Assembly: GCA_029558315.1 (NCBI GenBank)
Contig: JAKQFQ010000334.1
Span: 1 to 64,000, forward strand
DNA length: 64,000 nucleotides
Direction: 5' to 3'
Origin: Bacillota bacterium
GTDB taxonomy: Bacteria; Bacillota; Clostridia; Lachnospirales; Lachnospiraceae
The translations under genes were made by a program, and so were the position numbers. Numbering within the stretch: the first letter of the stretch is position 1; each line of letters begins with the position of its first letter. The notes beneath the pieces are model-generated. The model did no database searches. It was not told the origin of the DNA and saw only the letters and a program-made list of their open reading frames with translations. This document shows, one piece after another, positions 1 through 13,751 of the stretch.

Positions 1-161
1 ATTGGCTCCTTTCGGTATTTTGGAATTTTGGTCGAGGACATTATATCAAAAAAAGGGAGGTCAATGCTCTTTTTGGTGCAAACTCCCATAAAATCAAGGT
101 TTAGAACAATAAAACAAGGTAGGTATTTGACACTACCAGAATGTGAGGGGAAGAATCTTTA

Positions 162-779
162 ATGAAAGAATATTCCAATGTTACGGATGAGGAATTGATT
201 GTCAGAATCCGTGATGGTGAAAATGAAATCACAGATTATATCATTAATAAGTACAAGGATCTGGTTCGAAAGAAAGCACAGTCAATGTATATTTTGGGCG
301 CAGATAATGAAGATATTATTCAGGAGGGAATGATTGGCCTGTTTAAAGCAATTCGTGATTATGATGCCGGAAGGGATGCCAGTTTCTTTACATTTGCTGA
401 TATCTGTATTTCAAGACAGATGTATACTGCAATTCAGGCAGCGCACAGGCAGAAGCATTTTCCCCTGAACCATTATATCTCCTTATATAGTTCGGGAGAG
501 AAAACACCGGATGCACCGGAAGGAGCACAACTGATTAATGTATTGGCCTCGGTGTCTGATAAAAATCCAGAAAAACTCTTGATTGACAGAGAGAATATTG
601 ATCGTCTGGAACAGATCATGGAAAAGGATTTGAGTCCGTTGGAAAAGCAGGTTGTGGATTTGTTCCTGACAGGAATGGGATATGCAGAAATTGCAAGAGT
701 ACTTGGCAGAGATGAGAAATCTACGGATAATGCGCTTCAGAGAATCAAGGCAAAAATAAAAAAAGGAATGGAGCTGTAG
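162..779 (+). CDS. sigH: RNA polymerase sporulation sigma factor SigH-like
   Basis: 205 aa; sigma-70 regions 2 and 4 (EDIIQEGMIGLFKAIRDYD; LSPLEKQVVDLFLTGMGYAEIARVLGRDEKSTDNALQRIKAK); Spo0H/SigH-like overall. Confidence 0.9.
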   Translation: MKEYSNVTDEELIVRIRDGENEITDYIINKYKDLVRKKAQSMYILGADNEDIIQEGMIGLFKAIRDYDAGRDASFFTFADICISRQMYTAIQAAHRQKHFPLNHYISLYSSGEKTPDAPEGAQLINVLASVSDKNPEKLLIDRENIDRLEQIMEKDLSPLEKQVVDLFLTGMGYAEIARVLGRDEKSTDNALQRIKAKIKKGMEL

Positions 780-793
780 CCCCATTCCTTTTT
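760..793. terminator. Bidirectional terminator between sigH and CNNM gene
   Basis: aaaaaggaatgg - loop - ccattccttttt; perfect 12-bp arms; sigH stop codon (777-779) lies in the loop. Confidence 0.75.
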
Positions 794-2081
794 ACGACTC
801 TTCGGCGGAAGAATCCGACTCCGGCAGAGGTGCAAGAGTCAGTCTGACGGAACCAATTCGATTGTTTTCAAAACTTTCCACTTTAAGGGTGGTTTTGTCT
901 TCCAGAACAACTGTCTCACCTACAGTAGGAAGACAGTCATTTAGATGTTCAATGATGATGCCACCGATAGAATCATAATCTTCACTGTCTAAATCGGTTC
1001 CCAGCTGAGCATTGATGTCATCTAGCTTCATACTGCCTTCGATCAGGTACTCGCGATCTCCTACGCATTTTAACAGATCTGCCTCATCAGCATCATACTC
1101 ATCTCGAATCTCACCAAATATTTCCTCTACCAGATCCTCCAAAGTAATCATACCTTCAGCAGCACCGTATTCATTCAGAACGATGGAGAGAGAGACATTT
1201 TTTTCACGCATTTCATTGAGCAAATCCGGAACCTTTTTATATTCATAGGTATAGTAAACTTCACGTAGAAATTGCCTTACATTAAATGAGGAAGGCTCTT
1301 TTAGGAAAATCAAATCCTTTACGTTAAGAATGCCGACAATGTTATCCGGAGAATTTTCATAGACAGGAATTCGAGTATACATATTCTGATGAAAAAGGGT
1401 TTTAACTTCTTCATAATTACTCTCAATATCTGCTTCTACAATGGAGATTCGAGGAATCATAACGTCTTTAGCCAGTGCGTCTGAAAAATCAAACAAATTG
1501 TAGATCATTTCTTTTTCTTCGGATTCAATAACGCCTTCTTCATGGCTTACATCCACATAGGAAAGCAGTTCGCTTTCTGTAATTCCAATAACCTTCTGAT
1601 CCGGGGAAATCTTAAGAATACGCAAAACCAGATTAGACAGCAAATCCACCAGGAAAACCAGTGGCGTTAGAATCAGGCATAGAAAACGAATCACAGGCGC
1701 ATAGACAAGCGCTATTTTTTCATTATTAATCATCGCTAAGGTCTTTGGGATAATCTCACCAAAGAGCAGAACCAGAATCGTCAGTACTCCGGTGGCCAGT
1801 CCAATCGCCCAGCTTCCAAATACCACGGTTGCAAAAACGGTAGCCAGAGCGGAAGTGGAGATGTTAACAATGTTATTTCCTATTAGAATTGTACTAAGCA
1901 TTTTGCTGTAGTTAGAAAGAACCTTTAGAACTGTCTTGGCACGTTTGTTGCCATCATCGGCAAGGTTCTGCAGTCGAATCTTATTGACCGTTGTAAAGGC
2001 TGTCTCAGCAGAAGAGAAAAACGCTGACAATAAAAGTAATATAAATATCAATAGTAGTTGCATCCATTGTGCTGTATTCAA
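792..2081 (-). CDS. CNNM/CorC (HlyC-type) transporter-associated membrane protein with CBS domains
   Basis: 429 aa; N-terminal DUF21 TM region (LLLSAFFSSAETAFTTVNKIRL), CBS pair (VMIPRISIVEAD..., NVSLSIVLNEYGAAEGMITLEDLVEEIFGEIRDEYD), CorC_HlyC C-terminus. Confidence 0.9.
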   Translation of the reverse strand: MNTAQWMQLLLIFILLLLSAFFSSAETAFTTVNKIRLQNLADDGNKRAKTVLKVLSNYSKMLSTILIGNNIVNISTSALATVFATVVFGSWAIGLATGVLTILVLLFGEIIPKTLAMINNEKIALVYAPVIRFLCLILTPLVFLVDLLSNLVLRILKISPDQKVIGITESELLSYVDVSHEEGVIESEEKEMIYNLFDFSDALAKDVMIPRISIVEADIESNYEEVKTLFHQNMYTRIPVYENSPDNIVGILNVKDLIFLKEPSSFNVRQFLREVYYTYEYKKVPDLLNEMREKNVSLSIVLNEYGAAEGMITLEDLVEEIFGEIRDEYDADEADLLKCVGDREYLIEGSMKLDDINAQLGTDLDSEDYDSIGGIIIEHLNDCLPTVGETVVLEDKTTLKVESFENNRIGSVRLTLAPLPESDSSAEES

Positions 2082-2223
2082 AATAAACTCCTTTTTTATC
2101 CAATGTTTTCTTATTATGCAAAATCATAAGGAATCTTTGGTGAAATGTCAAGTTATTCAAATACTACGAATATAATTAGGAATAGAGAAGAATTACAATA
2201 TAGGAAAGGAATATGGTATTTTA

Positions 2224-2585
2224 ATGGAGCAAAAAAAGATTCTGTTCTCCCTGGGTAAATACTTGTTATTTTCAGTTATTCTGACAGGTATATTCTTAAT
2301 AATTCTGTCTTTTCTGCGATACTGGTTCGACCTAAAGGAATCATTGATCAATGGGGGGTCATAATAACATACGTCATTTCCTGCTTTTTTGCCGGACGGA
2401 TGGCCGGCAAACGTATGCAGAATCGACGATTTGTGTATGGAGCACTTATGGGAGGCACCTATTTTCTGCTGCTTCTTGCCGTGTCGGCAGGAACCGGAGG
2501 AGCGCAGTGGAAACCGGGGCAGGATTGCATCACAGTGTTGCTGCTTTGCACTGCAGGCGGTACTCTTGGAGGGATTGTGAGTTAA
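2224..2585 (+). pseudogene. TIGR04086-type small membrane protein, interrupted by a frameshift at a G6 tract
   Basis: Frame 1 reads MEQKKILFSLGKYLLFSVILTGIFLIILSFLRYWFDLKESLINGGS*; the continuation VIITYVISCFFAGRMAGKRMQNRRFVYGALMGGTYFLLLL... is in the -1 frame from 2358. One extra G in 2353-2358 restores a single ORF. Confidence 0.75.
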
Positions 2586-2710
2586 CAACTCTTAATTTGC
2601 AGAGAATATTGAAAAAATACTTTCTATATGAAAGGTTTTGTGATACAATACTGAAAGTATTGGAAATGTTAGTGTGACGTTTCCAAAGGAAAAGAACGGA
2701 GGATTACGTT

Positions 2711-2854
2711 ATGAAGCATATTAAAACATTAAATACGAGAGATTTTAAGAAAAGTATGAAAAAGGGCGGTTGCGGCGAGTGCCAGACTTCCTGTCAGTCA
2801 GCATGTAAGACATCCTGTACTGTAGGAAATCAGAGCTGCGAACAGACGAAATAA
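2711..2854 (+). CDS. scfA: SCIFF (six-cysteines-in-forty-five) ranthipeptide precursor
   Basis: 47 aa: MKHIKTLNTRDFKKSMKKGGCGECQTSCQSACKTSCTVGNQSCEQTK; RBS cggagga upstream; exactly six Cys; directly upstream of the radical SAM maturase. Absent from the provided ORF track. Confidence 0.95.
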   Translation: MKHIKTLNTRDFKKSMKKGGCGECQTSCQSACKTSCTVGNQSCEQTK

Positions 2855-2927
2855 GGAAAACAAAAGAGACGTATTTGGGGAGCAGCGATCATCAAAGTCG
2901 CTGCTTCTTATACGGTATGGAGAGAGT

Positions 2928-4322
2928 ATGATTCATCAGTATCAGAGTAATGGTTATAATATTGTTTTGGATGTAAATAGTGGAAGCGTTCACGTTGTAG
3001 ATGACATAGTTTATTCCCTGATTCCAAAGATGGAAACCGATATTGCCAACGGAATGAATGACGAAGATCTGCTTGAAAAATATGCAGGTAATGCAAGTGA
3101 TGCTGAGACGAGAGAAGCCGTTTTAGAAATTTTGACCTTGAAAAAGGAGAATATGCTTTATACAGAAGATATTTATGAAGCTTATATAGATGACTTTATG
3201 AAGCGTGAAACGGTAGTTAAAGCAATGTGCCTTCATATTGCACATGACTGTAATCTGGCATGTAAGTACTGTTTTGCCGGAGAAGGCGAATATCATGGTG
3301 ATCGTGGCTTGATGAGTTTTGAAGTAGGAAAGAAAGCTTTGGATTATCTGGTTGCCAATTCCGGAACAAGGGTGAATCTGGAAGTTGATTTCTTTGGCGG
3401 AGAACCTTTGCTGAATTGGGAGGTTGTAAAGCAGCTGGTTGCTTATGGAAGAAGTCTGGAAGAACCAAAGCACAAAAAATTCAGATTTACGGTTACAACA
3501 AATGGAACTTTACTGACAGATGATATGATGGAATTTATCAATAAGGAAATGAGTAATCTTGTTCTTAGTATTGATGGACGTAAGAAAGTAAATGATTACA
3601 TGCGTCCTTATCGTGGGGGACAGGGAAGCTATGATAAGATTGTTCCAAAGTATATTAAGGCAGCTGAGTCAAGGAAACAGATTAATTACTATGTGAGAGG
3701 GACTTATACTCATTTTAATACCGATTTTGCTGAAGATGTTCTGCATCTGGCAGATTTGGGATTTAAGCAGATATCAGTTGAACCGGTTGTTGCACCGCCG
3801 GAAGCTGATTATGCACTTACAAAGGAAGATTTACCGATTCTGATTAAACAGTATGATTATCTTGCGCAGGAAATGCTAAAACGAAGAAAAGGGGGAAAAG
3901 ATTTTAATTTCTTCCATTTCATGATTGATTTAGAAGGCGGTCCCTGTGTTGCAAAGAGATTATCCGGATGTGGATCAGGATGTGAATATTTAGCGGTTAC
4001 TCCCTGGGGTGATTTCTATCCATGCCATCAGTTCGTCGGACAGCCGGAGTATCTGATGGGAAATGTAGATGAGGGAATCACAAATACGAAGTTAAGAGAA
4101 CAGTTCCATAATTGTAACGTTTATTCTAAAGAAGCATGTAAGAACTGTTTTGCAAAGTTCTATTGTAGTGGTGGATGTGCAGCCAATGCACAGCATTTTC
4201 ATGGAAATATTTATGATGTATATGAAACAGGATGTGAATTGCAGAAGAAACGTATCGAATGCGCCATTATGTTGAAAGTAGCACAAAATGAAGAAGAGAA
4301 TGAAGAGGAGACGGTGAAATGA
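2928..4322 (+). CDS. scfB: SCIFF radical SAM/SPASM maturase
   Basis: 464 aa; CNLACKYC radical SAM motif; SPASM cysteines (CGSGCEYLAVTPWGDFYPCHQF ... CKNCFAKFYCSGGCAANA); adjacent to the SCIFF peptide. Confidence 0.95.
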   Translation: MIHQYQSNGYNIVLDVNSGSVHVVDDIVYSLIPKMETDIANGMNDEDLLEKYAGNASDAETREAVLEILTLKKENMLYTEDIYEAYIDDFMKRETVVKAMCLHIAHDCNLACKYCFAGEGEYHGDRGLMSFEVGKKALDYLVANSGTRVNLEVDFFGGEPLLNWEVVKQLVAYGRSLEEPKHKKFRFTVTTNGTLLTDDMMEFINKEMSNLVLSIDGRKKVNDYMRPYRGGQGSYDKIVPKYIKAAESRKQINYYVRGTYTHFNTDFAEDVLHLADLGFKQISVEPVVAPPEADYALTKEDLPILIKQYDYLAQEMLKRRKGGKDFNFFHFMIDLEGGPCVAKRLSGCGSGCEYLAVTPWGDFYPCHQFVGQPEYLMGNVDEGITNTKLREQFHNCNVYSKEACKNCFAKFYCSGGCAANAQHFHGNIYDVYETGCELQKKRIECAIMLKVAQNEEENEEETVK

Positions 4323-6724
4323 AAAAAGGTACAGCAATTGTCGCACTGCTTGCTGTCATCGCAGCGATAGTCGGATTAGGCTATATCGTACTCTACGGTG
4401 TAGGTGAGAATGCAGCCGGTTCAGCCAGAGATACCAAGTTGGGATTGGATCTTGCCGGTGGAGTAAGTATCACATATGAGGTGGTAGGTGAAGAAGCACC
4501 TACGAAAGAAGATCTTGACGATACGATTTTTAAATTAAGAAAACGTATTGATCAGTACTCAACGGAAGCACAGGTGTATCCGGAAGGTGATCGCAGAATT
4601 AGCATTGAGATTCCTGGTGTATCAGACGCAAATGCCATTCTTCAGGATCTCGGATCTCCTGGATCGCTATACTTTATCCGTTCGGTTGGAAGTGACGGTA
4701 CTTTGAACTATCAGTATATGGAGACGGCTGGCGGAGAACAGGTTTATAAAGAGGACACCACATATTTCTGTTATGTTTCTTCGATGCCATATTTATATGA
4801 TAAAGAAACAGATGAAGTTGCTGTTGATGCCAATGGAGCACCAATACCATATACGATTATTGAAAGAGCACATGTTAAACCGCAGTATGAATTAACCAAA
4901 AGTATAGAAGATATTATTGCTGATGGATGTGCAGTACTTAGCGGAACAGATGTAGCTTCCTCAGAAGCAGTATCACATACAGATGAGTATAATGTAACGC
5001 AGAATGTGGTTGCATTACAGTTTACCGGAGAGGCTGCTCAAATCTTTGGAAATGAGACCGGAGCAGTTGCCGGAAAGGCAGGACTATACGGAACGATCGC
5101 AATATACTATGATCAGGAATTGCTGAGTGTGCCGATGGTTTCGAATCGAATCGATGGAGGCGAAGCACAAATCACCGGTATGAGTGATTTCTCTGAGGCA
5201 GAGGAACTGGCACAAAATATCAGAATCGGTGGATTGAAGCTGGAATTGCAGGAATTAAGATCGAATGTCGTAGGAGCACAGCTTGGTACGGAAGCGATTG
5301 CAACCAGTATTCTGGCCGGTATGATTGGACTTGTAATTGTTATAATTTTCATGATTACTGTATATCGTATCCCTGGATTGGCGAGTTCATTAGCCCTGAT
5401 GATTTATATCATACTGATTATGCTGGGAATCAATCTGTTTGAGATTACATTAACGTTACCGGGTATCGCAGGTATTATCCTGTCTGTCGGTATGGCGGTG
5501 GATGCCAATGTAATTATTTTCGCCAGAATTCGTGAGGAACTGGCAGATGGCATTACGGTAGAATCGGCAATTAAATCCAGTTTTTCAAAGGCTTTGTCTG
5601 CAATCATTGATGGTAATGTTACCACATTAATTGCTGCAATTGTGTTAATGATAATGGGAAGCGGTTCAATCAAAGGATTTGCCTATACGTTGGCCCTTGG
5701 TATTATTGTTTCCATGTTTACGGCACTGTTTATTACCAAGCTCATTTTGAATGCATTCTATGCAGTTGGTTTTAAGAGTGAAAAATGGTATGGAAAAGTG
5801 AAAGAGAAGAAGACAATTGATTTCCTGAAGAAGAGAAAAGTCTTCTTTGCAATATCAATTGGTGTTATTGTTTTAGGCTTTGTATTTATGGGAATCAATA
5901 AGGGTACAACAGGAGATTTCCTCAATTACAGTCTTGAATTTAAAGGTGGTTCTGCCGCTTCTGTAACATTTGAGAGTATGATGGAAAGAGATGTAATTGA
6001 GAATAATGTAATTCCGGGAATTGAAGCAATCACAGGGGATGCCAATGTACAATGGCAGACCGTGAATGATTCAAATGAAGTAGTATTTAAGACCCGTGTA
6101 TTGGATGCTACAGAGAGAGAACAGTTTGAAGATTTGATGACAACTTCCTTTGGCGTTGATAGTGCCAAAATCAGCTTTGAGACAATTGGTTCCACTATTT
6201 CAGGTGAAATGAAAAGAGAATCATTACTCGCTGTTTCTATTGCTACGATTTGTATGCTGATTTATATATGGTTTAGATTTAGTGACATTCGATTTGGTGC
6301 TAGTGCAGTATGCGCGCTGATTCACGATGTACTTGTTGTGTTGACCTTCTATGCAGTTGTTCGGTTGAGTGTCGGCAGTACATTTATCGCCTGTATGCTA
6401 ACCATTGTGGGATATTCAATCAACGCAACCATTGTAATCTTTGATCGTGTCAGAGAAAATCTGAAAGCAATGAAGAAGAAGGATACATTGGAGGATATGG
6501 TGAATAAGAGTATCACGCAGACGTTGACTAGAAGTATCTTTACTTCCCTGACTACGGCGGTGATGGTTATTGTATTGTATATTCTTGGTGTTTCTTCGAT
6601 TCGTGAATTTGCACTTCCTTTGATTATTGGTATTGTCTGTGGAACATATTCTTCTGTATGCATTACCGGTGCTTTGTGGTTTATTCTTAGAAAGAAATTT
6701 CCACAGGTTGAGAGTGATGACTAA
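4319..6724 (+). CDS. secDF: Fused protein translocase subunit SecDF
   Basis: 801 aa; SecD (LGLDLAGGVSITYEV; GMAVDANVIIFARIREEL) fused to SecF (LEFKGGSAASVTFE; GYSINATIVIFDRVREN); start overlaps the scfB stop (ATGA). Confidence 0.95.
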   Translation: MKKGTAIVALLAVIAAIVGLGYIVLYGVGENAAGSARDTKLGLDLAGGVSITYEVVGEEAPTKEDLDDTIFKLRKRIDQYSTEAQVYPEGDRRISIEIPGVSDANAILQDLGSPGSLYFIRSVGSDGTLNYQYMETAGGEQVYKEDTTYFCYVSSMPYLYDKETDEVAVDANGAPIPYTIIERAHVKPQYELTKSIEDIIADGCAVLSGTDVASSEAVSHTDEYNVTQNVVALQFTGEAAQIFGNETGAVAGKAGLYGTIAIYYDQELLSVPMVSNRIDGGEAQITGMSDFSEAEELAQNIRIGGLKLELQELRSNVVGAQLGTEAIATSILAGMIGLVIVIIFMITVYRIPGLASSLALMIYIILIMLGINLFEITLTLPGIAGIILSVGMAVDANVIIFARIREELADGITVESAIKSSFSKALSAIIDGNVTTLIAAIVLMIMGSGSIKGFAYTLALGIIVSMFTALFITKLILNAFYAVGFKSEKWYGKVKEKKTIDFLKKRKVFFAISIGVIVLGFVFMGINKGTTGDFLNYSLEFKGGSAASVTFESMMERDVIENNVIPGIEAITGDANVQWQTVNDSNEVVFKTRVLDATEREQFEDLMTTSFGVDSAKISFETIGSTISGEMKRESLLAVSIATICMLIYIWFRFSDIRFGASAVCALIHDVLVVLTFYAVVRLSVGSTFIACMLTIVGYSINATIVIFDRVRENLKAMKKKDTLEDMVNKSITQTLTRSIFTSLTTAVMVIVLYILGVSSIREFALPLIIGIVCGTYSSVCITGALWFILRKKFPQVESDD

Positions 6725-6746
6725 TACAGAACTTTCTACGTAAGCT

Positions 6747-6785
6747 GAAATGGTTACCCTTCCCCGCAGAAGAGTAGCCATTTTT
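6747..6785 (+). terminator. Probable terminator after secDF
   Basis: gaaatggttaccctt / aagagtagccattttt imperfect (G-U) hairpin followed by a T-rich stretch. Confidence 0.6.
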
Positions 6786-6802
6786 CATAAATTAGGATTT
6801 CG

Positions 6803-7585
6803 ATGGAGAACGAAATGCAGAATCGGGTAAAGAAAACGAAAACAAATACACACTTACAGTGGTTTGGTGTCATATTGATTATGGGAATTGCAGTGGTAGC
6901 TGCATTTGTCATGCTGCTTTATCAGAAAAAGATTGTTATTAATCCGTATTTTTCTTCGCATTACGAGGTGTGTGGTGTAGATATCTCCAGATATCAGGGC
7001 GACGTGGATTGGGAGGTACTCTCGGCGCAGATTGATTTCGCATATATTAAAGCAACAGAGGGAAGTCTCCATGTGGATGATTGTTATAAAGAAAATGTTG
7101 AAGAAGCGCAGGAAACTCAAATACCAATCGGTGCATATCATTTCTTTAGCTTTGAGAGTTCTGGAGAAAGTCAGGCCAGTAATTATATTGCTACAGTAGG
7201 CAGATTTGATGGAATGCTGACTCCGGTAATTGATGTGGAGTATTATGCATCAGATAGAGATAGAGCGAGTACGGAAACAATACAGAGAGAATTGCATAGT
7301 ATGCTGGATTCGCTTGAAGCATATTATGGCTGCAAGCCGATGATTTATGCAACCATGACATCCTATACGTCGCTGATACAGGGGGAATTTAAAGATTATC
7401 CCATCTGGATACGAAATGTTTATTATCCACCTTTATTCATTGCAAATGACTGGACAATCTGGCAATATAGTGATAAAGGAATGCTGAAAGGTTACCATGG
7501 TGAAGAAATTTATATTGATATGAATGTGTTCCATGGAAATCGTGAAGAATTATCATCATTAAGAGTTCCGTATAATTCAAATTAA
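6803..7585 (+). CDS. Membrane-anchored glycoside hydrolase family 25 lysozyme
   Basis: 260 aa; N-terminal TM; GH25 motifs CGVDISRYQGDVDW, FAYIKATEG, GAYHFFSF, TPVIDVEYY. Confidence 0.9.
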   Translation: MENEMQNRVKKTKTNTHLQWFGVILIMGIAVVAAFVMLLYQKKIVINPYFSSHYEVCGVDISRYQGDVDWEVLSAQIDFAYIKATEGSLHVDDCYKENVEEAQETQIPIGAYHFFSFESSGESQASNYIATVGRFDGMLTPVIDVEYYASDRDRASTETIQRELHSMLDSLEAYYGCKPMIYATMTSYTSLIQGEFKDYPIWIRNVYYPPLFIANDWTIWQYSDKGMLKGYHGEEIYIDMNVFHGNREELSSLRVPYNSN

Positions 7586-7660
7586 TAGTTTTTTAGTTAT
7601 TCAAAGGTAGATATAATAAAGAGGAAGCTTTTTGAAACATTCTTTTACAAAGGAGATATC

Positions 7661-10594
7661 ATGACCGACAAAAAATATGATGCATTTATCAGCTATCGTC
7701 ATAGTGAACTGGATCGATTTGTAGCTGAAAAGATTCAGCGAGAGCTGGAAAATTATAAATTGCCCAGAGCTGTGAAACGAAATTCCGAAGGAAATGGAAA
7801 GAAGAAGATTGAGAGAGTCTTTCGTGATAAGGATGAACTGCCTTTGGCAAGCAACCTTTCTGATCCGATTAATAAAGCATTACAAAATTCGGAATTCCTG
7901 ATTGTCATTTGCACGCCAAGACTGCCACAGTCTGTATGGTGCAAGCTGGAGATAGACAGTTTTATTGCGATGCATGGAAGGGATCATGTACTGGCAATAC
8001 TGGCTGAGGGGGAACCGGAAGATTCATTTCCGGAGCAACTCCTTCATGAGGAACGACAGGTTGTGCTTCCGGATGGAAGCGTCAAGACAGAACAGCTTCA
8101 ATTAGAGCCATTGGCCGCTGATGTTCGTGGTAAAAATAGAACCGAGGTTATGAAAAATATTCGGGCTGAAAGTCTGAGATTGCTGTCTGTGATGTTTGAT
8201 GTCAGCTATTCGGATTTGCGACAGAGACATCGGGAAGAAAAACTGAAAAAAATAATTGGTATTACAACCTTTGCGGCTGTTGTGTGTCTGGCTTTTGGGG
8301 CTGTCAGCTGGATGATGGTAATGATGATTCAGAAACAGGCAGAATTGCTTGAGACACAGAAGATGGAATTGCAGGAAAGTAATGCACAGATTCAGGAACA
8401 ATATTGGATGTCGATGTCGCAAAATGAAGCACAGGTAGCGGAGAATGCCATGAGTCTGGCAGATGTAGGAAGGCGTAGGGAAGCTGCTGAAATGTTGCTG
8501 GACGTTATGCCTAAAAGCTCACAGGATTCAGAAATTCCATTTGTACCACAGGCCAACAGAGCATTAACCAATATTCTTGGTATTTATGATACCGGATATT
8601 TTCTTCAGCCGACCAATGTGTTTGAGTGTTCCACTACGGTATCCTATATGACAACTGACTCAAGCGGTCAATTCTTATTGGCAGGGGATGAAGCAGGTGA
8701 ATTATATCTTTATAATGTTAAAGAGGATAAGCTGCTGTATCAGGCTTCTACGCAAATAAACTATCTTTCGGAAAAATATATGGGATTTATTGATGAAGAA
8801 AGGCTATATTACACGACAGAGAATACTTTTGTAATCTATGATTTTGTGAATGAAACGGAAGTCCTTAATGTTTCACTTCAATACTCTGGTGTAAACTATG
8901 AGGTTTCCTGTTGCACAGATTATATTGCATTGTTTTCATTCGCTGATATAGCGGTTTATCAACTGGATACAATGAAAGAAGTATATCAAATTGATAAAAC
9001 GTCTATGGATGCAATGGCGACTGATTACATTGCAAATGCTTCTGTTAATATTGATGGAGCAATGCTGTCCGGTGATACGAATTATTTTGTCTATTATGAA
9101 TCTGAATATTCATCCACGCAGGATGTTCTTCCCGAGTATACATTTTATGTTTTGGATACTTCAACCTGGGAGGAACTCTGTACAACCCAGATAACGACAA
9201 GCTTCATTGACCAAATAAGAGTTTATGATGGCAAATTGATCATCAGTACATTTAACTCATTGGACTCGGAAGAAAGTAAAATTATTCAGTGCATAGACGT
9301 CAATACCGGAGAACTATGCTGGGAAAATCGAAATCTCACAGTTTATACAGACCATATGTATCATTGCACTGCATGGGGGAGCGATACTATTTTGATTGAA
9401 GCAGGGCGGCAGTTAATTATACTTGATTCTCTGACCGGAGAAACCATTGCAAGTAATGTTTTTCAAGATGATATCATGCAAATTGGTGCATTGGAGTCAA
9501 AGGGATTCTTTAAGATATGGTGTGGAGATGGTACTTATATAATCTGGAATTCGTCGCAATTGGATACAACATCATTCTCATTGCTTTCCATTAACTGTAG
9601 CGGAGAGATTATCCAAATAGTGCAGGGAGACGGCGCATATTTTGTAAGTCTGACGAATAATAAGGAAATTATTTATTATACATACAGTATGGGAGAGAAT
9701 GTAGAACAGATTACGGATACTAATTATGAAGAGGTGAGAGTATCTCCTGATGGTAAGTTCTGGGCTGGATTTGATACGGATACTTGTAATATTGATATTT
9801 TCGATGGAAGCAACAATGAAAAGTTATACAGTTACTTTTGGGAGGGGGATTATATAACACCGACATTTTGTTTTGTTAAAGACAGTTCTTACCTGGCGAT
9901 GGCGATGGCTGATGATGAGGTAACTATGGTTTTGTTTAATTTAGAGGATGGTACGACGACAGAATTCAACTGTGAGGAGTTGGTATATGCACATAGTGTT
10001 ACCTTTTCCTGCGATGGTACACAGATAATCGCAAGCAAAATAGAAGGCATCTTTTATGTGGATGTATTAACGGGAACAGTAAGTACGATTCCAGGTGATT
10101 TACTGCCTGAAAACTTTTATGACTACGATACTGTGTACAGTAGGGATCTGGAACATATAGCTTATCTGAATGCGGAGAAGGAAAGCATTGAAGTATTTAA
10201 TCTATCAACATATGAGATGGAAATGGAGATTACAATTGACACAAATAATGTCAACAATATACTTTTTTGCGATAACACAGATCATCTGCTGGTCGAGTAT
10301 AAAGATTCTACAAATGAGATATACAGTATTACAGCAGGAGAGTTGTGTATGCGTCTGGATGATGGAATATCAGAAACGGAAGAGATGTTCTATTTAGAGG
10401 AAAAAGATGAGTACTATATCAGATCTGACTTTAGAACGATTGTATTGAATGGAGCTTTCTCAATCTTAGAGGATATTTACACATTTCAAGCATATTTACC
10501 TAACCAGAATGCTTATCTGTTATCCGGCTCGGCTACTTATATTGTACCCAAGTATAATTATGATGATTTGATAGAAGCAGCAGAAAATTTCTAA
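7661..10594 (+). CDS. TIR-domain protein with TM segment, coiled coil and C-terminal beta-propeller-like (WD40-type) region
   Basis: 977 aa; TIR start KYDAFISYRHSELDRFVAEKIQREL; SVWCKLEID (WCxxE); TM KIIGITTFAAVVCLAFGAVSWMMVMMI; pre-propeller element EAAEMLLDVMPKSS...QANRALTNILGIYD; then repeated beta blades. Confidence 0.85.
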   Translation: MTDKKYDAFISYRHSELDRFVAEKIQRELENYKLPRAVKRNSEGNGKKKIERVFRDKDELPLASNLSDPINKALQNSEFLIVICTPRLPQSVWCKLEIDSFIAMHGRDHVLAILAEGEPEDSFPEQLLHEERQVVLPDGSVKTEQLQLEPLAADVRGKNRTEVMKNIRAESLRLLSVMFDVSYSDLRQRHREEKLKKIIGITTFAAVVCLAFGAVSWMMVMMIQKQAELLETQKMELQESNAQIQEQYWMSMSQNEAQVAENAMSLADVGRRREAAEMLLDVMPKSSQDSEIPFVPQANRALTNILGIYDTGYFLQPTNVFECSTTVSYMTTDSSGQFLLAGDEAGELYLYNVKEDKLLYQASTQINYLSEKYMGFIDEERLYYTTENTFVIYDFVNETEVLNVSLQYSGVNYEVSCCTDYIALFSFADIAVYQLDTMKEVYQIDKTSMDAMATDYIANASVNIDGAMLSGDTNYFVYYESEYSSTQDVLPEYTFYVLDTSTWEELCTTQITTSFIDQIRVYDGKLIISTFNSLDSEESKIIQCIDVNTGELCWENRNLTVYTDHMYHCTAWGSDTILIEAGRQLIILDSLTGETIASNVFQDDIMQIGALESKGFFKIWCGDGTYIIWNSSQLDTTSFSLLSINCSGEIIQIVQGDGAYFVSLTNNKEIIYYTYSMGENVEQITDTNYEEVRVSPDGKFWAGFDTDTCNIDIFDGSNNEKLYSYFWEGDYITPTFCFVKDSSYLAMAMADDEVTMVLFNLEDGTTTEFNCEELVYAHSVTFSCDGTQIIASKIEGIFYVDVLTGTVSTIPGDLLPENFYDYDTVYSRDLEHIAYLNAEKESIEVFNLSTYEMEMEITIDTNNVNNILFCDNTDHLLVEYKDSTNEIYSITAGELCMRLDDGISETEEMFYLEEKDEYYIRSDFRTIVLNGAFSILEDIYTFQAYLPNQNAYLLSGSATYIVPKYNYDDLIEAAENF

Positions 10595-10602
10595 ACAGCA
10601 AT

Positions 10603-10634
10603 AAAAAAGCTTCCATAGCGATGGAAGCTTTTTT
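10603..10634. terminator. Bidirectional intrinsic terminator
   Basis: aaaaaagcttccat-agcg-atggaagctttttt, perfect 14-bp arms between two convergent genes. Confidence 0.95.
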
Positions 10635-10662
10635 CGTAACAGGAAACTACTCATATGATTCA

Positions 10663-11826
10663 TTAGTTAATAGTTACATTTTCTTCAAGATAGTTGATGA
10701 CCTTGTCTGTGAGTGCAGCCTGTGCCAGATAGTTATATCCGTACTGTGTAATTAATTCCTGATAAGAAGCATCATCGCATCCCTGTGCAGTAAAGTAGGC
10801 TTTGACTTCTTCTTCAGTATTTGTCAGACCGGCTGTTTCATAAATGTATTGGATTGCAAGGAAATACTCTACATCATGTTTGGCTGTCTCGGTACAGAAG
10901 GTTAGATATTCTGCTTCAGTGGGATAACCATACATTTCATAGGTGTTATTGTATATTGTAATTCCATATTGCTGATTAAAGGAATTCATCTGTTGTTCAT
11001 TCTGATAATCATAAAGTTTGACTGCATTATCCAAATAAGCTTGAGGATATTGAGATATTACACTGTTGCTGGAAAGAGAGGTCTTGATTGCACGCTCAAG
11101 ATTACTGTCATAGTAGGATTGTGTAAGGTAATCTTTATATCCGTCAGCAGTAGAGGCAACATCCGAATAATAAGTTTGTACAAAGGAATCATTAAATTCC
11201 GGAACAACATAAATACCATGGAAAGTAATGTCATAATCGACAGTCAAGCCAGCCAGCTTAGGATCAACAAAGTCGGCTGGGAAAGTTACCGTAGTACTAA
11301 ACTGATCGCCGGCACTGTGTCCGGTAAGAACGGTATCGAATTCCGGAGTCCAGGAAGCCTGCCCAATTATAAAATCTGCACCGCCATCTGATTCAGTGAT
11401 TGCATTTAGGGATGCACCACTTACTGTTGCGGTATAGTAGATATTCACCTTATCGCCCACTTTACTAACTAAAGCACTGTTGTCTGAAATGGTAGCATAG
11501 GATTCACAAACACTCACGATGTCTGATGTTAATTGATCTTCAGTTGGCAGCAAATCTGCTTTGTTAAAGGAAATGCTTTGATAATCAACCTGAATATAAT
11601 CATTAATATCAATTCCTGCAATGGTTCCCTCTTTGGTTAATCCACGACTAAAGTCGATTTTGGAATTCTGATAAACAATCACAAGAACAATGATTGAAGC
11701 AACAATCACAAGCGGGATTAGAATTGCCCACATTGTTGCCATTGCACGTTTCTTTTTTTGTGTTTTTCTGGCATTTTCCATATCCAAACGTTTTTGCTTG
11801 GATTTACTGATTTCATTCTGACTCAT
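10663..11826 (-). CDS. Membrane-anchored trigger-factor-like FKBP-type peptidyl-prolyl isomerase
   Basis: Start MSQNEISKSK preceded by AGAGGAGG; TM AMATMWAILIPLVIVASIIVLVIVY; FKBP-like segment (VGDKVNIYYTATVSG ... ADFIIGQASWTPEFDTVLTGHSAGDQFSTTVTFPADF); trigger-factor-like helical C-terminus. Confidence 0.75.
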   Translation of the reverse strand: MSQNEISKSKQKRLDMENARKTQKKKRAMATMWAILIPLVIVASIIVLVIVYQNSKIDFSRGLTKEGTIAGIDINDYIQVDYQSISFNKADLLPTEDQLTSDIVSVCESYATISDNSALVSKVGDKVNIYYTATVSGASLNAITESDGGADFIIGQASWTPEFDTVLTGHSAGDQFSTTVTFPADFVDPKLAGLTVDYDITFHGIYVVPEFNDSFVQTYYSDVASTADGYKDYLTQSYYDSNLERAIKTSLSSNSVISQYPQAYLDNAVKLYDYQNEQQMNSFNQQYGITIYNNTYEMYGYPTEAEYLTFCTETAKHDVEYFLAIQYIYETAGLTNTEEEVKAYFTAQGCDDASYQELITQYGYNYLAQAALTDKVINYLEENVTIN

Positions 11827-11969
11827 AATTTCCTCCTCTGATGCATTTTGACCTTTCAAAAGTCCAATGTACAGTATATCATATTTCAAAAATTAATAAA
11901 GAGTTTCCATTGGAAATGATGTATAATGGGAAAGAAAGATAAGAGAAAGGAATTACGGGGTGCCGTACA

Positions 11970-13751
11970 ATGGAACAGTGGATCTTAATGCGAAAAGGTG
12001 CTGATTATCAGGCTCTTTCGGAAGAATTTGGTATATTGCCGGTAACAGCCAGGGTAATTCGGAACCGAGGTATGATAACCAGTCAGGATTTTGATGAATA
12101 TCTTCATGGAACAATTGCCTGTTTTGGACAAGCCAGGGATATGAAAGATATGGAATTGGCTTGTGATATATTAAGAGAAAAAATAGAGCAACATAAGAAG
12201 ATAAGGATTATTGGGGACTATGATATTGACGGTGTGTGTGCAACCACTATTTTATGGAAAGGATTACAGAGTGCCGGAGCCTGTGTCGATGCAGTAATTC
12301 CGCATCGGGTGAAGGATGGTTATGGTTTAAACAAAGAAATGATTGAGCGAGCCAATATAGACGGAATTGATACCATCCTGACCTGTGATAATGGAATTGC
12401 AGCAAGAGAAGAGATTGCCTATGCCAAGATGCTTGGAATGACCGTAATTATTACAGATCATCACGAAGTCCCATATGAGGATGTGCAGGGAGAACGCCAT
12501 TACCTTATTCCTGAAGCTGACGCAGTTGTTGATCCGAAACAGGAAGCTTGTGGATATTCCTTTAAAGGGATTTGTGGTGCTTTTGTTGCATATAAACTGA
12601 TAGAATGCTTTTTTGCGCTTAATGCAGCTTTGGTTACCGATGCTTTGGTAATGGACGCCCTTTGGGATGAGTTGCTCCAACTGGCAGCCTTTGCAACTGT
12701 TGGAGATATTATGGAGTTAAAAGGGGAGAATCGTGCATTAGTAAAAGAGGGACTGAGTCGGATGCGGAATGCGAAGTCACATGGCATAAAAGCATTGCTT
12801 AGTGTGCTGGGACTGACGGGAACCTGCCTTTCCACCTATCATTTAGGCTACCTTTTAGGACCCTGTATCAATGCAACCGGAAGAATTGACACAGCAGAGC
12901 GTGCACTGGAATTACTGATGTCACAGGATGATGTAACGGCAATGCAGCTGGCTTCTGAATTAAAGGCAATGAATGACAGCAGAAAAGCATTTACCGAAAA
13001 GGGAACTGAAGAAGCGGTAGCACAGATTACGAGAGGAGAGCATAAAGACAGTAAGGTATTGGTTATCTATCTAAAGGATTGCCATGAAAGTATTGCCGGA
13101 ATTGTTGCGGGGAGAATTCGAGAACGATATGGAAGACCAACGCTGGTGATTACAGATGCAGAGGATGGGCTGAAAGGATCAGGAAGATCGATTGAGACAT
13201 ATCATATGTATGATGCATTGGCCGCAGTAGGCGATATTTTCACCAAATTTGGTGGACATGCACAGGCGGCTGGCTTTTCGCTGCCAAGAGAGCGGCTGGA
13301 AGAACTGAGAAAGCGACTGAATGAAAACTGCAGCTTGACGCAGGAAGATTTCAGGGGAAAGATTTATATCGATGTGGATCTTCCGCTTTCTTATGTTGAT
13401 ACAAGATTACTGGACGAATTGACACTGATGGAACCATTTGGTAATGGAAATGAAAAACCGATGTTTGCAAGAAAAGGTCTTATATTAACAGAGGGAAAAC
13501 TCTTAGGAGCTGAGGGCAAGGTTGGAAAGTACAAGGTATGTGAGACTGATGGGGCGGTGTATGAACTGACGATGTTTTATAGAAATCAGGAGTTCCTGCA
13601 ATTCCTTAGAGAGCAGCATGGTGCGGATGCGGTGGATGGAATTCTTGGCAAAAGAGGGGGAAGAATTCCGATTTCGATTGCATATTACCCACAGTGGAAC
13701 GAATATCAGGGAAGAAAGAGTATACAGATTGTAATTGCAGATTATTGCTAG
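11970..13751 (+). CDS. recJ: Single-stranded-DNA-specific exonuclease RecJ
   Basis: 593 aa; DHH motifs IRIIGDYDIDGVCATTIL, VIITDHHEVP; DHHA1 FTKFGGHAQAAGFSL. Confidence 0.95.
   Translation: MEQWILMRKGADYQALSEEFGILPVTARVIRNRGMITSQDFDEYLHGTIACFGQARDMKDMELACDILREKIEQHKKIRIIGDYDIDGVCATTILWKGLQSAGACVDAVIPHRVKDGYGLNKEMIERANIDGIDTILTCDNGIAAREEIAYAKMLGMTVIITDHHEVPYEDVQGERHYLIPEADAVVDPKQEACGYSFKGICGAFVAYKLIECFFALNAALVTDALVMDALWDELLQLAAFATVGDIMELKGENRALVKEGLSRMRNAKSHGIKALLSVLGLTGTCLSTYHLGYLLGPCINATGRIDTAERALELLMSQDDVTAMQLASELKAMNDSRKAFTEKGTEEAVAQITRGEHKDSKVLVIYLKDCHESIAGIVAGRIRERYGRPTLVITDAEDGLKGSGRSIETYHMYDALAAVGDIFTKFGGHAQAAGFSLPRERLEELRKRLNENCSLTQEDFRGKIYIDVDLPLSYVDTRLLDELTLMEPFGNGNEKPMFARKGLILTEGKLLGAEGKVGKYKVCETDGAVYELTMFYRNQEFLQFLREQHGADAVDGILGKRGGRIPISIAYYPQWNEYQGRKSIQIVIADYC

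Follow-up and report, generated by a model that had tools for sequence, protein, structure and literature searches.

The scfA-scfB locus described here very probably makes a SCIFF ranthipeptide that is cross-linked by the radical SAM enzyme ScfB and acts within the producing cell. The two genes lie in a 64,000-nt stretch of DNA that was analysed as a whole (hereafter, the window; contig JAKQFQ010000334.1 of a Lachnospiraceae bacterium, assembly GCA_029558315.1), and the pair represents, in ordinary form, a gene system already known from clostridia. This reading starts from direct observations on the identity of the genes, their conservation, the stem-loop between them and their neighbours. For the mature product, the use of the stem-loop and the biological role of the window pair we infer the following course of events, the thioether chemistry and the binding of the leader to the maturase CteB having been shown for close relatives. 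ScfA would be translated, and its leader (approximately residues 1-20) would bind to the N-terminal RRE domain of ScfB; this enzyme, using SAM and three [4Fe-4S] clusters, would join the core residue Cys32 to a nearby threonine, more likely Thr34, in a non-alpha thioether. The stem-loop probably shifts the production or the survival of message in favour of scfA over scfB, and the mature peptide would most likely serve the producing cell in signalling or housekeeping, tied to sporulation and cell-density control, and not as a weapon.

The precursor and its maturase

The precursor, MKHIKTLNTRDFKKSMKKGGCGECQTSCQSACKTSCTVGNQSCEQTK, starts with ATG and comprises 47 residues, namely, the leader and a core that contains Cys21, Cys24, Cys28, Cys32, Cys36 and Cys43 together with Thr34 and Thr37. 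An earlier note, made from the DNA letters alone, had read this gene in a part of the window that is skipped by the ORF track; the coordinates, the start, the six cysteines and the numbering of Cys32 and Thr37 were all found as it had claimed. The omission from the ORF track is plausible, since SCIFF genes are considered to be easily missed by structural annotation (PMC5300114). In the profile search that the note had proposed, ScfA scored 91.1 bits with TIGR03973 (cut-off 50, E=3e-26) and 89.8 bits with PF13165 (cut-off 27, E=9.6e-26), and ScfB was likewise far above the cut-off of TIGR03974 (Table 1). Comparison with 160 genomes finds in ScfA both the six cysteines within about 45 residues and the CGEC..CQSACKTSC core. 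At the DNA level, scfA differs from its two nearest relatives (L031 and L032, the enzymes of which are 81-82% identical to the window ScfB) by 15 and 19 bases, with only 1 and 0 non-synonymous codons, respectively. Because these differences are nearly all silent, scfA is, judging from the sequence comparison, almost certainly translated and under selection; a chance ORF at this position is ruled out by the profile scores and the almost purely synonymous divergence.

Directly downstream, on the same strand and after a gap of 73 nt, the SPASM radical SAM enzyme anticipated by the note is indeed encoded. ScfB is 464 residues long, carries the radical SAM motif CX3CX2C as CNLACKYC at residues 108-115 (Cys108, Cys112 and Cys115) and has, in common with CteB, the SPASM-region cysteines 340, 348, 366, 404, 407, 413, 417, 436 and 445. 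Its best relative of solved structure is CteB of Clostridium thermocellum (PDB 5wgg, E=8e-173 over residues 1-451). When ScfA is compared with the PDB, the top match is the fragment 1-21 of CteA inside the same entry, which aligns to the window leader. Two other models stay below their cut-offs on ScfB, namely, not_ScfB (563.6 against 855) and the PapB-type maturase model NF047865 (275 bits against 340, E=8e-82). The SCIFF/ranthipeptide identity and the kinship with CteA/CteB proposed in the note are thus fully supported by the profile scores, the 5wgg match and the alignment of the CteA leader.

Table 1. Features in and around the scfA-scfB locus of the window
Feature	Position	Strand	Basis
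Gene for a small membrane protein (TIGR04086/DUF3792), split over two frames	2224-2585	+	Domain matches in two frames
Shine-Dalgarno sequence GGAGG of scfA	2698-2702	+	Sequence reading; ATG 8 nt further on
scfA, 47-aa SCIFF precursor	2711-2854	+	TIGR03973 and PF13165 matches; mostly synonymous divergence
Stem-loop, terminator/attenuator-like, weak T run	2870-2914	+	Core stem 2877-2889 / 2897-2909; folding against shuffles
scfB, radical SAM/SPASM SCIFF maturase	2928-4322	+	TIGR03974, 759.6 bits (cut-off 425); 5wgg match; cysteine list
secDF fusion	4319-6724	+	SecD TIGR01129 and SecF TIGR00966 over cut-off; 4-base overlap with scfB

The window pair can be placed among several characterised systems. 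Compared with CteA/CteB (thermocellin; PDB 5wgg and 5why), ScfB can be aligned from one end to the other, with conservation of the cysteines in its radical SAM and SPASM parts; the differences are sequence divergence only and the fused secDF that follows the window pair. The first SCIFF pair to be characterised, Tte1186a/Tte1186 of Caldanaerobacter subterraneus, has the same Cys32/Thr37 numbering, as reported in reviews. In Paenibacillus polymyxa, PapA/PapB (freyrasin) similarly combines a ranthipeptide with an ScfB-related SPASM maturase; freyrasin, however, has six Cys-Asp beta-thioethers, and the window enzyme lies below the PapB cut-off.

The TIGR04086 gene upstream of scfA is broken near a six-G run at about 2355-2360: DUF3792 positions 3-38 correspond to 2224-2364 and positions 55-115 to 2400-2585 in the other frame. 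Both halves match one single ORF in six related loci (L032, L060, L065, L078, L107 and L181), and the frame split may reflect either a true mutation or an error introduced in sequencing or assembly. Across the class Clostridia, SecD/F lies beside scfA in at least 49 of the 83 loci with Thr37, in 21 families; the same 83 loci contain YajC (at least 53), TIGR04086 (at least 43), TGT (at least 39) and QueA (at least 28), the neighbour clusters having been named via example members; all these counts are lower bounds because the stretches were limited to about 4-5 kb. Profile matches recognise no exporter or leader protease gene next to the window pair. Further away, 162-779 encodes a SigH-like sporulation sigma factor, which is above the cut-off of one SigH model and well below that of TIGR02859; secDF is followed directly by a glycosyl hydrolase family 25 (lysozyme-like) protein (6803-7585), and the 977-aa product of 7661-10594 has a TIR domain at its N terminus (PF13676, E=1.5e-8), followed later in the chain by beta-propeller-like matches.

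A recurring stem-loop between the genes

The 73 nt that separate scfA from scfB fold with a minimum free energy of -23.7 kcal/mol (z -4.3), a stability matched by none of 200 shuffles. The mean fold z of the gap in relatives is -3.6 among 80 Lachnospiraceae and -3.2 among 113 genomes of the class, as compared with -0.7 and -0.3 in matched-length controls upstream of scfA and -0.4 and -0.3 in coding DNA inside scfB. Stems of at least 8 bp are found in 181 of 193 gaps and in 55 shuffled gaps; the hairpin search is built to return the strongest stem, and it is therefore the contrast with shuffled gaps that counts here. The stem sequences vary among relatives while the pairing is kept, as read by eye. 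The gap contains no known structured RNA, inasmuch as no Rfam match was obtained within 1-12000.

In other RiPP operons, an attenuator yields more precursor than enzyme, and, by analogy, the likeliest use of the stem-loop would be the same. A less probable reading, which nevertheless deserves serious weight, is that the element is a complete terminator, with scfB driven by its own promoter, or else stabilises the mRNA, and does not set the ratio. A T run follows the stem in 106 of the 193 gaps (as against 1 in shuffled gaps), and in some families (f54, f21 and f27) scfA and scfB are unlinked yet both kept, as this reading would have it; in the window, however, the T run is weak and the gap of 73 nt yielded no promoter-like site. 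A strict terminator scan did not flag the window stem-loop.

The acceptor of the thioether

Two positions have been proposed for the bond. According to the summaries in PMC8326336 and PMC8172795, a Cys32-Thr37 thioether was reported in vitro, first for Tte1186a and then for CteA, whereas co-expression of CteA and CteB by Hudson et al. (2019) gave a Cys32-Thr34 bond via C-gamma. In our comparison, Thr34 is kept in all 160 genomes (58 families), while position 37 is occupied by Thr in 132, by Gly in 27 and by Ala in one. The pattern used for extraction of the peptides left positions 34 and 37 free; it prescribed the spacing of the cysteines as well as Ala31 and Lys33, and restricted positions 29 and 30, so that invariance at these latter sites is partly built in.

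Glycine and alanine have no gamma carbon; a Thr37-type bond therefore cannot be universal. Of the two candidates, Thr34 alone occurs throughout the relatives examined, which makes it the more likely acceptor, also, as far as can be judged by comparison, in the window peptide. This assignment is favoured rather than proven: the same invariance is seen at further core positions that the pattern left free, Ser35 and Asn40 among them, and on its own it is no proof of an acceptor role. That ScfB joins Cys32 to Thr37, with Thr34 being only structural, appears unlikely: the in vitro reports and the presence of Thr37 in the window peptide and in the majority of the genomes speak for it, and the co-expression result, the 28 genomes with Gly or Ala, and the retention of a full-length ScfB by the Gly37 peptides speak against it. 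The Cys32-Thr37 cross-link that the earlier note had taken over from the CteA work is accordingly upheld as to the residues and the in vitro precedent, and is called into question by the conflicting report and by the absence of Thr37 from 28 of 160 genomes.

A subclass with glycine at position 37

The 27 Gly37 sequences form one clade on a tree of 139 ScfB proteins (SH-aLRT 99), corresponding to a single change; many separate changes from Thr37 to Gly, which had been suspected from the family counts, are ruled out by this single clade. The clade spans 16 families (f3, f5, f7, f11, f14, f15, f17, f18, f19, f28, f30, f36, f39, f48, f56 and f71), several of which also include Thr37 members. Trees in which f30 or f18 was constrained to a single clade were rejected (AU p 2.3e-5 and 1.1e-9, respectively; these values are only indicative, the two groups having been chosen after the tree was seen). 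In f30, both types reside on chromosome-sized contigs (G211 and G080), so that contamination is no explanation for the mix in this family.

The Gly37-type pairs (for instance, L263, L208 and L219) share with the window pair the six-cysteine core, Thr34 and a TIGR03974-type maturase; they differ by Gly in place of Thr37, by their separate ScfB clade and by a decarboxylase-like neighbour instead of SecDF. Specifically, a gene for an Orn/Lys/Arg PLP-decarboxylase-like protein (OKR_DC_1, PF01276) is found immediately next to the pair, on either its upstream or its downstream side, in 19 of 23 Gly37 loci (L227 is a further example) but in only 1 of 90 Thr37 loci, although, the Gly37 set being one clade, these are not 19 independent events. 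SecD/F was not detected beside any Gly37 locus among those listed. In two Gly37 genomes, G003 (L124/L160) and G100 (L127/L161), two complete leader-core SCIFF units are contained in one 95-codon ORF.

The clade suggests, as the simplest reading of the sequences, horizontal spread of a scfA-scfB cassette. A wider picture can be offered tentatively, as a possibility that is more likely to fail than to hold in all its parts: the Thr37 class would be largely fixed in the queA-tgt-yajC-TIGR04086-secDF neighbourhood, the Gly37 class would be a horizontally spread cassette beside a decarboxylase-like gene, both would truly form Cys32-Thr34 bonds, and the class-wide stem-loop would set the ratio of precursor to maturase.

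Distribution and precursor genes without maturase

Among 243 sampled genomes of the class, scfA is present in 209 (~86%) and ScfB scores over its cut-off in 207. In 119 of the 128 class genomes listed for both, scfA directly precedes scfB on the same strand, with a median gap of 103 nt. The nine non-adjacent cases belong to f54 (four), f21 (three), f27 (one) and f4 (one), and the last of these, with the genes on two contigs under 8 kb, may be merely a contig break. Carriage on a plasmid was considered and rejected: the sole ScfB-like match above 50% identity was on a 2.6-Mb Acetoanaerobium "plasmid" record, the size of which suggests that it is probably a chromosome.

Every ScfA is expected to have an ScfB companion (PMC5300114). 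Family f35 departs from this statement, in that scfA occurs in 7 of its 37 genomes (loci L112, L117 and L269-L273) and ScfB over the cut-off in none of the 37. The genomes of f35 are small. Neither G196 (258-kb contig, 98% complete), which has Ala at position 37 of its peptide, nor G270 (56-kb contig, 100% complete) gave an ScfB-like match at E <= 0.001. These genes raise the prospect that ScfA may have a role independent of ScfB. In its strongest form, this would mean that ScfA acts chiefly in unmodified form, as a metal or redox peptide rich in cysteine, the thioether being secondary. Such a view, to which the six cysteines, the near-invariant core and the intact f35 genes, some of them on long contigs such as that of G196, lend some appeal, seems to us rather improbable: outside f35 and a few other cases, scfA and scfB co-occur and are usually adjacent, the small f35 genomes, most of which have no scfA, also fit decay, and at least one of the seven, G268, with a Gly37-type peptide on a 5.7-kb contig, may be contamination.

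The role of the peptide

We return to the cross-linked ranthipeptide as the preferred product. In Clostridium beijerinckii, a close relative in this respect, disruption of the precursor and maturase genes lowered the expression of sporulation genes and raised that of agr, according to the summary in PMC8102284. This phenotype, together with the fact that so nearly invariant a peptide is widespread, makes it most likely that the product serves the cell that makes it. The examined portion of the text on C. autoethanogenum transposon data makes no mention of scfA or scfB. A bacteriocin or other antimicrobial product can be dismissed as highly improbable: genome-mining papers do list ranthipeptides among bacteriocin-like clusters, but most of the class genomes sampled contain the gene, its core hardly varies, profile matches reveal neither an immunity nor an export gene alongside the pair in the window, and a published review argues against this function.

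Taken together, the f35 orphans, the Gly37 subclass, the stem-loop and the acceptor preference are leads from draft genomes and not established facts. The window pair itself is a further instance of a system already described, and its added value is comparative, residing in these same four aspects. The question of whether Thr34 or Thr37 is the SCIFF acceptor is now directly testable, with the natural Gly37 and Ala37 peptides as ready-made controls, and two further handles on the purpose of a near-invariant peptide that is found in most of the class come from the scfA orphans and from the stem-loop that recurs among relatives.
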